From assembly GCA_013360215.1 (NCBI GenBank), contig JABWCP010000013.1, forward strand, positions 1-64,000: a stretch of DNA of 64,000 nt. The letters run 5' to 3'. This DNA comes from a bacterium. GTDB lineage: Bacteria > CLD3 > SB21. The position numbers and the translations under genes were made by a program. The first letter of the stretch is position 1, and each line of letters opens with the position of its first letter. The notes under the pieces were generated by a model that saw only the letters and a program-made list of their open reading frames with translations, was not told the origin of the DNA and ran no database searches. Positions 8,404 through 25,140 of this stretch are shown in pieces.

Positions 8404-9402
8404 ATGAAAAAATCTATCGTTTCGGTCTTATTGGCGGGACTGTTGGTGCTTAATGGATGTGATAAGAAAGATGATTATTTTGCACGTTTTGCGGACTTGA
8501 CAAAAGTTCATCCTGATCTTCTTTTCGTTTCGGAGTCTCCCGGTTCGCAGCATATTTATGCTGTTCATGATACGGCCAGAGGAGATGTATTGGATGTGAG
8601 TTATAACGATTTTGAACTTGATCCTACTTGGGAAAAATCAGGGCGGGTTTTTGCATATACCAATATTCACCTTTTTAATAGCTCAACAGGTCAACCAGCG
8701 CACTCTAATATTTATATACGGCATATGGATAGTTCATCCATAACACCGATCACCTATAGTAAATATTATCAGGACACGAATCGCGTAATCAAAGGGTTGA
8801 CTTTAAATTTACGCCCTGACTGGTCTCTCAATACGTCGGAGGTTGTTTTTTTATCAAATCGTGATTCCTTATTTAATATTTATAAAACGACGATTTCAGA
8901 TACGTTATACGGCGATACGTTACCTACGAAATTGACAGAAATAGATGATAAAATAAATATTTTTTGTCACCCCTCATGGTCACCCGACGGATCTAAAATA
9001 GTCTATACATCGTCCAAAACGGGGAATGAAGAAATCTGGATCATGAATGCAGATGGTACAGGAAAAACACAGTTAACGGATTTAAATGCTTCCATCGCGG
9101 CTCGTCCGCGTTTTTCACCGTCCGGAGATAAAATTGCATTTTACAGTTCGTATTTAAAAGACGGCAACGACAGTCTGAATATTTTCACAATGAATCCGAA
9201 TGGTACGGGTATACAAAAAGTTACCCAATCAGGGAACAATATTGATCCGGCATGGACTCCGGACGGTAACCGGATTGTGTATTCAAAACGTACATCAACT
9301 CGCGGTTATATTTATCTTATTAACCGGGATGGCACGGAGGAGAAAAAAATGATTTCCAAAGACAGCCGAGCTTATTATCCGATTTGGAGACCGGCCCATT
9401 AA
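8404..9402 (+). CDS. Lipoprotein with TolB-like PD40 beta-propeller repeats
   Basis: A 332-residue protein with a lipoprotein signal (MKKSIVSVLLAGLLVLNGC, lipid Cys19), so it is envelope-anchored. At least three or four PD40/WD40-like blades are visible: RPDWSLNTSEVVFLSNRD, HPSWSPDGSKIVYTSS followed by IWIMNADGTGKTQLTD, PRFSPSGDKIAFYSS, and PAWTPDGNRIVYSKR. TolB-like propellers usually bind proteins or sugars in the periplasm, and the partner here is unknown. AAAAGGA precedes the ATG. It lies 20 bases after asnS and is followed by a strong terminator, so it is the last gene of this plus-strand run. Confidence 0.85.
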   Translation: MKKSIVSVLLAGLLVLNGCDKKDDYFARFADLTKVHPDLLFVSESPGSQHIYAVHDTARGDVLDVSYNDFELDPTWEKSGRVFAYTNIHLFNSSTGQPAHSNIYIRHMDSSSITPITYSKYYQDTNRVIKGLTLNLRPDWSLNTSEVVFLSNRDSLFNIYKTTISDTLYGDTLPTKLTEIDDKINIFCHPSWSPDGSKIVYTSSKTGNEEIWIMNADGTGKTQLTDLNASIAARPRFSPSGDKIAFYSSYLKDGNDSLNIFTMNPNGTGIQKVTQSGNNIDPAWTPDGNRIVYSKRTSTRGYIYLINRDGTEEKKMISKDSRAYYPIWRPAH

Positions 9403-22471: not shown

Positions 22472-22978
22472 ATGAAAAAATTAGTTGTTCTCGCTTTGTT
22501 AGTTATGCTAGCCACAGCGATTCAAACCAATGCACAAATGAAAGCCGGAAGTATGCGTCCCGCGTTGGAGTTGAATTTTGGAGGTCTTGGTCTTGGTTAT
22601 GGTGCCAGCTTCGAATATGGTATCACAGACAAAATCAGTGCACGCGCCAGCGCAAATATTTCAAGTTACAAAACCGGCGGTGATGAATGGTCATTGATCC
22701 CCATTGATGCGGTTGGTGTTTATAATGTTGATGATAGTAAGTATGCCATGCTGGGCGTTACGTGGACAACTTTCTCAGTTGATCCGAGCATTGGAAAAAA
22801 GGAAAGTTCTTCGTCGTTCGGCGTAGTTGCTGGTGGAGGTTATCGCTATAAACTCAATGATAAAATTTCAGTCAACGGAGAAGGAAAGTACCGTGTGATC
22901 ACACTTGAATCAGGTGCTTATAAACTTTCTGTAGCATGGTACACTGTCGGCGCAGGCTTCTCTTACGCTTTGAATTAA
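22472..22978 (+). CDS. Small outer-membrane beta-barrel protein
   Basis: A 168-residue exported protein with a clean signal peptide (MKKLVVLALLVMLATAIQ, cleavage near TNAQ). The mature part is Gly/Tyr-rich alternating strands such as LELNFGGLGLGYGASFEYG and VVAGGGYRYKLNDKISVNG, ending YTVGAGFSYALN. This is the pattern of an 8-strand OmpA/OmpW-like or porin-family barrel. GGAG precedes the ATG, and a strong terminator follows, so it is monocistronic. Substrate or role unknown. Confidence 0.78.
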   Translation: MKKLVVLALLVMLATAIQTNAQMKAGSMRPALELNFGGLGLGYGASFEYGITDKISARASANISSYKTGGDEWSLIPIDAVGVYNVDDSKYAMLGVTWTTFSVDPSIGKKESSSSFGVVAGGGYRYKLNDKISVNGEGKYRVITLESGAYKLSVAWYTVGAGFSYALN

Positions 22979-23038: not shown

Positions 23039-23262
23039 AATATGTTCAAATCTACATAATTTTCGAAGCAAACATCGGTGTGGTGTAGATCAATGAAGAG
23101 ATTCTCCCTCTTCGAAATTATCTGGCAAAATATCATACCATGACAATAATCGGTTGAGGTAAAAATTCATGTTGTTTTTTAAACTAAAAACTAATAAATG
23201 TGTCGCGTATTTTTTATCTCTAATCTCATGGTGTGTCAATTTCCAAAAAAAAGGGAGTATTT

Positions 23263-23679
23263 ATGGTAGCAAAAGCATTGATTCCACTAATAGTGATAAC
23301 AGCGTTGATTGTGATTTCATGTTCGGAGGATGATTCGATCGGGGACGAGGGTTCTCTCACGGCACTTGATACGGTAAATGTGTCCATTTCCAAAGATTCG
23401 ACTTGTATTGTAGCATTAATAGTGAAAGCGACTGTAACCATTACGAGCAAAAAAACCGGAATACCGGTATCCGGATTTTCAGTTAATATAGAATCCAAAG
23501 CTTATTACCGTACAGCTTGCGGATCGCCGGGATCGCCTGATTTGGCTGATTATGCTAATGGTAGCGGAACTACTAATGCATCAGGTAAAGTAACGATTGA
23601 TTTGATTTTTGCTCCTTCAAGCTACGAAGGCGGTATCTATAAATATAAACATGTAGATTACGTCAGAGTAAAACCTTAA
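23263..23679 (+). CDS. Small lipoprotein with an Ig-like domain
   Basis: A 138-residue protein. The ATG at 23263 has GGGAG upstream, while the longer frame from 23233 has none. The lipoprotein signal is MVAKALIPLIVITALIVISC (lipid Cys20). The mature part has an acidic linker (SEDDSIGDEG) and beta strands typical of a Big_1/CarboxypepD_reg-like fold, VTITSKKTGIPVSGFSVNIE and GTTNASGKVTIDLIF. Only two Cys remain in the mature domain (in the STCIV and TACGS segments). Function unknown. A terminator follows directly. Confidence 0.7.
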   Translation: MVAKALIPLIVITALIVISCSEDDSIGDEGSLTALDTVNVSISKDSTCIVALIVKATVTITSKKTGIPVSGFSVNIESKAYYRTACGSPGSPDLADYANGSGTTNASGKVTIDLIFAPSSYEGGIYKYKHVDYVRVKP

Positions 23680-24071
23680 ATGTCTTACTGCAAAGCAAAC
23701 TTTAAATTCCACTTGGAGAGGGTTTCACAAGTGGAATTTTTTTATTCAGAAAATCGAATTAAGAAAAGATGTTACGGTCAAATAAATCGTCGCTTAAAGA
23801 TGATGGTGAGTAAATGCAGCGAAAGTAGTTTCTTGTGCTGATTTAAGACAACCGTCTCCCGTGAAGATAGAAAAGTTGCGATTTATCTCACACCCATCGT
23901 CATTATTTGGGCCTTTGTTCAAAAATCCTCGTTTTAAAGGAAGCTTATGAATTTCCTTTTTTAAACGATATTTCTATGGAGTCACGACTTTTAATAAAAG
24001 ATTGAAATTCTTTGCCATTTATCTTAATCTGTGGGTGCGTAGTTAAATCTCTAAAAAAAATGAGGAATTCC
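23680..24071. other. 392-base intergenic region with terminator and imperfect palindrome
   Basis: Holds the terminator at 23704-23743 and an imperfect palindrome at 23929-23968, in which TCGTTTTAAAGGAA is opposite TTTCCTTTTTTAAACGA. The rest shows no open frame of note and no recognisable RNA gene. GAGGA for the next gene is at the right end. Confidence 0.5.
23704..23743 (+). terminator. Rho-independent terminator of the Ig-like lipoprotein gene
   Basis: Twelve-bp stem AAATTCCACTTG/CAAGTGGAATTT (23704-23715 and 23728-23739) with a 12-base loop. The T-run continues to 23743. Confidence 0.88.
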
Positions 24072-24749
24072 ATGAAACACTTACTTTCTTTTATCGCAAT
24101 TGTATTGATGTCTATGGGGCAAATAAGTTATGCACAAGACAAAGGTAATCTTTTGATTTCAGGTGCTTTCAGTTACAATGTTTCAGAAACTATACCCGAA
24201 GAACTTTCTTTTCTAGGAGAAAATTTTAGTGGGGGGGTATACCAATACGAGAATAGTTTTGATGCCGCGCGTAGGTGTTTTTATCACGCCGAACATGGCA
24301 TTAGGCATTGGTATCGGCTATCAAAACACAAAAGTTGAATTTGAATATGATACGGAAAAACAAACAACGTCAGATCCACGCATTGTAATCCAACCTTTTG
24401 TAACAAACTACCACCATTTAAACGACAACGCGAGTTTTTTTTCGACGCCTCAGTTTTTTATAATTTTGGAACCAGCAAGTTCACTTATACAGACGATGAT
24501 TATCCGGAAGACAATGAATCCGAAAAATTGAAGAACGTATCATACGGTATTAATTTGAGCCCCGGTATCGCTTACAAACTTACAAATAAAGTCGCGCTTG
24601 AGCTAACAATGGGACGTGTTTACTATAGTAAATCTGAAGTAAAACCTAAAGGAGCTCCCAGTTCGTTAGCGATCAAAAACAAAAATTACGGATTGAATCT
24701 TGATTTGAAACATGTCGAACTTGGTATTGAGCTTTATCTTTCACGCTAA
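24072..24749 (+). pseudogene. Outer-membrane beta-barrel gene broken by two homopolymer frameshifts
   Basis: Three frames join into one exported barrel protein of about 225 residues. Frame one (ATG 24072, GAGGA upstream) encodes a signal peptide (MKHLLSFIAIVLMSMGQISY) and about 50 residues, then goes astray at seven G (24231-24237). The next frame continues YTNTRIVLMPRVGVFITPN and GIGIGYQNTKVEF to eight T (24435-24442). After that the original frame resumes with FDASVFYNFGTSKFTYTDDD and ends as a C-terminal strand VELGIELYLSR. One G fewer and one T more restore a full reading frame, and the two shifts cancel. Either a sequencing/assembly error, a true pseudogene, or slipped-strand phase variation of a surface protein. 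Confidence 0.7.
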
Positions 24750-24785
24750 ATTGAATTATTGCTATTCGTTTGATACATACTACGC

Positions 24786-24807
24786 ACCCGGCTTAGCCGG
24801 GTTTTTT
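24786..24807 (+). terminator. Rho-independent terminator of the frameshifted barrel gene
   Basis: Perfect 7-bp stem ACCCGGC/GCCGGGT (24786-24792 and 24796-24802) with loop TTA, followed by T to 24807. Confidence 0.9.
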
Positions 24808-24825
24808 ATTTGACCAACATTTTCC

Positions 24826-24853
24826 TTGCTTTCAGTGATAAAAAATATATATT
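24826..24853 (+). promoter_or_regulatory. Candidate promoter of rpsU
   Basis: TTGCTT (24826-24831), a 16-base spacer, then TATATT (24848-24853). It lies directly after the preceding terminator and about 90 bases before the rpsU start. The same two boxes with a 17-base spacer occur upstream of the large repeat protein gene. Confidence 0.45.
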
Positions 24854-24942
24854 TAGCCCATATTAGCTATTATCAGCTCTTATATTTTTAAGTTTATTAT
24901 TTACAATTACTTAATATAAAAAGCTAAACCAAAGGATACCTC

Positions 24943-25140
24943 ATGATCACCGTCCAAGTCGGCGAAAACGAACCTTTTGATAAAGCGCTCAAGCGTTTTA
25001 AACGTAAATGTTTACAATCCGGTCTTATGCGCACATTGCGCGATACAGCGCACTATGTGAAGCCGAGCGAACGCCGCAAAGCCGATCGTATGCGTGCTAT
25101 CCGTAAACAAAAACAGATTCAGGCCGAAGAAGGCAACTAG
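24943..25140 (+). CDS. rpsU: 30S ribosomal protein S21
   Basis: A 65-residue basic protein of the small ribosomal subunit. It begins MITVQVGENEPFDKALKRFK, as in S21 of FCB bacteria, and continues with the RRKADRMRAIRKQK basic helix. AAAGGATA precedes the ATG. It is set apart by its own upstream candidate promoter and by a terminator just downstream, so it is likely a monocistronic, highly expressed gene. Confidence 0.95.
   Translation: MITVQVGENEPFDKALKRFKRKCLQSGLMRTLRDTAHYVKPSERRKADRMRAIRKQKQIQAEEGN

Follow-up and report, generated by a model that had tools for sequence, protein, structure and literature searches.

A putative outer-membrane protein gene broken at a G7 and a T8 tract: tentatively, a young pseudogene made by slippage

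The window analysed here is a stretch of 64,000 nucleotides (bases 1-64000 of contig C13) from a 3.72-Mb draft genome in 56 contigs (G000). On its forward strand, positions 24072-24749 hold a former single gene for a protein of about 225 residues, now split over two reading frames. The first piece (24072-24338) begins with a signal-peptide-like N-terminus, and an AGGA that by eye resembles a Shine-Dalgarno motif (24063-24066) stands 5 nt 5' of its ATG; the second piece (24235-24441) lies in the +1 frame and encodes 69 residues, and the third (24444-24749), again in the original frame, encodes 101 residues up to the stop. Downstream of the gene, on the same strand, a hairpin (24786-24802) with a T tail (24786-24807 in all) resembles an intrinsic terminator, and the gene is apparently monocistronic. 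A search for sigma-70-type promoters across 23650-24950 found 0, against 4.7 in shuffled sequences, a result that says little, as the lineage may use other promoters. Two neighbouring genes also encode exported proteins: the one at 22472-22978 an OMP_b-brl protein (36.8 bits with PF13505), the one at 23233-23679 a lipoprotein-like protein of 148 aa that has no family.

Read from the ATG at 24072, the frame runs into a stop at 24336-24338 after 88 codons, a stop that is reached out of the gene's original frame. The +1 frame carries a stop at 24214-24216 and is then open from 24217 to 24531, while the original frame reopens at 24351 and stays open to 24749. Seven Gs at 24231-24237 and eight Ts at 24435-24442, both exactly where the earlier note had placed them, are the sites of the two frameshifts. 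Sequence, stops and orthology together locate the first one: it is bounded to about 24217-24237 by the +1 stop at 24214-24216 and by the alignment to the orthologue described below, which sets in at the glycine codon at 24235, and G7 is the longest run in that interval. The second is placed at T8, between the last matched residues of the second piece and the aspartate codon at 24444, and the incoming frame reads the tract as T_TTT_TTT. Apart from the stops at the breaks, the three pieces contain no in-frame stop, and a change in the length of either tract alters the frame, which is how the repeat of an SSR contingency locus is placed. That the gene as drawn is not translated whole, as had been claimed, is borne out by the stop that leaves 88 residues; the further claim that the two shifts cancel each other does not hold for translation, given the three stops (24336, 24342 and 24348) that stand in the original frame between G7 and T8. 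A possible internal start is also seen in the +1 frame at 24215-24231, where AGGAGA is followed by a GTG at 24229, and it would yield a 100-aa ORF (24229-24531) on its own.

Joined with X at the two junctions, the three pieces found one close relative among 40 other genomes (G004:C20). It is uninterrupted over 233 aa, the same gene being present in JABWBZ010000004.1 (locus L009; bacterium isolate MAG_43). This orthologue is collinear with all three pieces, with 18/53 (residues 1-53 of the first piece), 28/69 and 47/101 residues identical, and in each of the three pieces the observed identity was reached by 0 of 10,000 shuffles. The third codon position is the most divergent in every piece, and the two proteins show only one- and two-residue differences in length until the slightly longer C-terminus of the orthologue. 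Because this intact orthologue aligns along all three pieces, the middle piece is, as judged from the alignment, true former coding sequence in another frame, and the earlier proposal that the three frames make up one protein is thereby confirmed. On the scale of the 34%, 41% and 47% identity to the orthologue, the inactivation would be recent. What defines a pseudogene, i.e., an intact relative together with frame-breaking lesions in the copy under study, is found here. The earlier note had also suggested that orthologues be compared for conservation of the tracts, and neither tract is present in the only close orthologue: it has no G tract, and its T run is shorter and interrupted. Among 9 genomes of the class, own genome included, no further close orthologue was found; a search of the gene's own genome with the third piece gave no paralogue at a threshold of E<=1, and tblastn against IMG/VR revealed no relatives. 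Weak matches were recorded in G004, G002 and G005 (E 2.7e-7, 8.2e-5 and 1.4e-3) and in G003 (E 7e-3, against the 40 relatives plus the own genome).

An outer-membrane barrel is the likely identity of the protein, as predicted from profile similarity. The orthologue, whose N-terminus also looks like a signal peptide by eye, matches the outer-membrane beta-barrel families PF13505 (weakly, over profile positions 22-172 of 175) and PF13568 (in part), but its scores of 23.8 and 22.7 bits are under the curated cut-offs of 28.7 and 27, respectively; the third piece of the window gene likewise gives a weak OMP_b-brl match below cut-off, with 16.2 bits for PF13505 and 15.2 bits for PF13568. A search of NCBIfam returned sub-threshold outer-membrane matches only, and a sequence search of the PDB gave a best match at chance level (E 0.3). 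The single-sequence structure model of the orthologue reached a mean pLDDT of 35 and was not used.

The tracts as such are unremarkable, and the broken frame is not due to chance. G7 is the sole G/C run of at least 7 in the 64-kb window, and T8 runs number 13 there, that of the gene included. Over the first 200 kb of the genome sample, 1 G/C run of at least 7 was seen versus 1.7 and 0.8 in second-order and fourth-order Markov simulation, and 71 A/T runs of at least 8 were seen versus 82.6 and 91.7; an enrichment of long tracts in the genome was rejected on these 200 kb, the counts being as simulated. The G tracts of at least 7 in the whole genome (25 tracts, from 32 overlapping 7-mer matches) were all examined: a single tract precedes a start codon and 24 are genic, of which 21 keep their gene open; the three that break the frame are those of the window gene and of two paralogous lipoproteins. 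The sample together with another 40 stretches yielded 55 G/C tracts of at least 6 that are flanked by 600 bases or more on both sides, 34 of them in ORFs of at least 150 aa; the remaining 21 comprised the window gene, one G8 before an ATG and 19 without a clear frame break by eye, including one 5' of a patatin-like gene (L107) that was hard to judge by eye.

Frame changes were also surveyed with a codon model trained on 185 ORFs with lengths of 300 aa or more, by which the window and 20 stretches of 20 kb were decoded (464 kb). When single-base indels were introduced artificially into well-decoded genes, 278/338 were detected (18/47, 55/74, 100/106 and 105/111 by length class). The survey yielded 107 frame changes between adjacent coding stretches, and the 23 most suspicious, with a run-on of at least 20 or an overlap lacking a nearby start codon, were read: 20 appeared to be ordinary gene ends or non-coding sequence, and three were switches within genes (L054, L050 and L047). 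Breaks in weakly coding genes are missed by this survey, because the codon model does not see the window gene as coding. When the 464 kb were searched for perfect repeats of 2- to 12-base units, just two emerged, an 8-bp repeat in L054 and a 6-bp repeat that keeps the frame. Since 21/24 genic G tracts of at least 7 lie in open genes and the survey gave few frame switches, the assembly is mostly sound at homopolymers.

The two frame-breaking tracts outside the window lie in lipoprotein genes. One (L065, 2887-2896, i.e., G000:C8:107887-107896) is a G10, longer than any other G run in the genome, and the other (L066, G000:C30:25836-25842, reverse strand) is a G7 in a distant paralogue, the two proteins sharing 28% identity (E 3.5e-5) and having no Pfam or NCBIfam match above cut-off. 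Both tracts stand, by eye, after the start codon and ahead of the signal peptide's hydrophobic core and are out of frame by one base, and after the tract both genes are otherwise open, for 420 and 413 aa. The relatives of L065 in G002 (61%) and G004 (40%) contain no G tract, and none stands near the start of three further lipoprotein paralogues that G000 encodes (L080, L082 and L083). As for the switches found in the survey, the one in L054 (7201-7227, i.e., G000:C4:7201-7227) coincides with 3.4 copies of an 8-bp unit inside a secreted protein that carries a caspase domain (PF00656, 4e-17), with a Fib_succ_major domain (PF09603, 1e-25) located past the switch; its relative in G002, 71% identical to the first part, is open for about 750 codons with no tandem copies of the 8-bp unit. 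At the same locus the caspase-like gene has a G8 (8819-8826, reverse strand) that starts 12 nt 5' of its ATG, a position at which it might serve as the ribosome-binding site or modify it. The switch in L050 (near 1738, G000:C2) changes the frame of a large Ig-like, probably secreted protein without any repeat, and may reflect decay into a pseudogene or an assembly error.

Our preferred explanation, to which we give a probability of roughly 45%, is that the window gene is a recently inactivated outer-membrane protein gene, i.e., a young pseudogene made by slippage. In its favour, both breaks lie at homopolymers, and no G/C run in the window is longer than G7; an intact collinear orthologue is known; and the other long genic G tracts of the assembly, like the reading of the survey's 23 suspicious changes, gave few broken frames. 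This judgement is based on one assembled genome of the species, in which fixed, segregating and erroneous tract lengths look alike. On the other side, the absence of further decay suits a switchable gene or an error equally; the two lipoprotein genes that are out of frame at signal-peptide G tracts and otherwise open favour switching; and the frameshift outside any repeat may be decay or assembly error. The scenario would run as follows: replication slippage shifted the frame at G7 and at T8, one after the other, and the second shift met no opposition, as the gene was already off and presumably dispensable in this population. Standard translation from the ATG would then produce 88 residues only, and ribosomes crossing G7 in frame 0 would never reach T8. 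Restoring the gene would take more than the reversion of a single tract. Because stops stand between the tracts, the second shift would not have been selected as a repair.

Inactivation through homopolymers is described as a route of gene loss across prokaryotes, as far as the consulted part of that report goes (PMC2831843), and the window gene resembles such pseudogenes in its two slippage-type indels, its truncated product and the intact orthologue elsewhere; it differs in having no substitution-type stop elsewhere. A second point of comparison is offered by the frameshift scars of Mycobacterium tuberculosis, where, according to the portion of the source available to us, paired indels first disrupt and then restore the frame (PMC8339072). 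Two opposite-sign indels in one gene are common to both cases, whereas the second indel restores the frame there and stops intervene in the window gene.

Homopolymer contingency loci are well known, and a reversible switch was likewise suggested by the earlier note. On this reading, slippage at G7, and perhaps at T8, would turn a surface protein on and off, and the assembly would have caught the OFF state. We regard this as unlikely, though the best supported of the alternatives. The window gene shares with the poly-G/poly-C loci of Campylobacter jejuni and Neisseria an out-of-frame homopolymer of seven Gs in a surface-protein gene; it differs from them in being known from one tract length, in a genome where tracts are not enriched, with an orthologue that has no tract, and in being off at two tracts at once. 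In C. jejuni NCTC11168, polyG/C tracts of at least 7 are found at 29 loci, 28 of them typed as phase-variable in the part of the study that was accessible (PMC4965091). The suggestion gains from the three similar exported genes that are out of frame at repeats in this genome. All three frame-breaking tracts among the 24 genic G tracts lie in exported genes, and the survey adds, as one of its three in-gene switches, that at the 8-bp repeat of a gene with a G8 before its ATG. Exported genes hold 9/24 of the genic G tracts by reading, so that three of three has a p of about 0.04, counted after the fact, and the loss of accessory exported genes is also more readily tolerated. With dnaX set aside, the broken genes found, five in number, are all exported by reading (the window gene, the two lipoproteins, the caspase-like and the Ig-like gene), and in four the break is at a repeat, a pattern that fits phase variation and the loss of dispensable genes alike. 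The break of the exported Ig-like gene without any repeat points to a loss of exported accessory genes. Furthermore, G/C tracts do not exceed Markov simulation, and the G tract is absent from the orthologues and from near the starts of the three lipoprotein paralogues. Finally, G7 is at the lower limit for such tracts and a switch to the ON state would here require both to be in register at the same time; since the two tracts are out of register, loss is likelier than a switch for the window gene. It is doubtful that the genome holds a small phasome switched throughout by slippage, which would comprise the window gene, at least two lipoproteins with G tracts in the signal peptide, and the caspase-like/Fib_succ_major gene with its 8-bp repeat and a G8 at the ribosome-binding site.

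An error of sequencing or assembly at one or both homopolymers, with a real gene that is open, had been offered as the alternative to slippage, and it too strikes us as improbable. The error would explain why both breaks are at homopolymers in a gene that is otherwise undecayed; many apparent pseudogenes in assemblies are errors, as stated in the part of the source at hand (PMC11017572), and the genome is a 56-contig draft whose sample contains the unexplained frameshift outside any repeat. Against it stand the in-frame genic G tracts of the same assembly (21/24) and the 464-kb survey, where the 23 changes read, out of 107, include only two in-gene switches apart from dnaX. At such a rate, two errors within 678 bases are improbable, with the proviso that the survey is blind to weakly coding genes.

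Recoding, in which the ribosome or the RNA polymerase slips at the tracts and makes some full-length protein from the sequence as drawn, is very improbable: T_TTT_TTT (24435-24441), in the +1 frame, is a -1 slippery heptamer of the X_XXY_YYZ type in the right phase, and a -1 slip there would join the second and third pieces with the spacing of the orthologue, but this applies to T8 only, a slip in the opposite direction would also be needed at G7, and the one close orthologue is a single open frame that needs no slip and has neither tract, so the two-frame organisation is not conserved. The dnaX-like gene of the same genome (L047, about 430-455 on the reverse strand, G000:C1) makes slippage recoding at homopolymers plausible here: it encodes 388 aa to a stop, and a second frame continues past a run of about ten As. 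This A run followed by a stop is presumably the layout of the slippage-recoded dnaX of other bacteria, and the frame change is, by that analogy, probably normal slippage recoding that need not be a defect.

If the window gene is only a slippage-made pseudogene, it is a routine event of a known kind, and it is the similar loci in an unstudied lineage that raise its interest. General searches of the literature, a weak test here, found no paper that could be recognised as dealing with this lineage, and nothing on phase variation in it. Should it be true that its repeat-bearing exported genes switch, slippage would be a source of surface diversity in an uncultured lineage, one that metagenome reads could reveal without cultivation. 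In practical terms, gene callers will miss proteins like that of the window gene in this genome. Across the 9 genomes of the class, G8 tracts lie, by eye, mostly within open genes, with a few intergenic. In one relative, a G9 (L138, around 1501; G003:C22:35123) stands about 60 nt 5' of the ATG of a lipoprotein gene, where it might serve as a promoter or leader switch.
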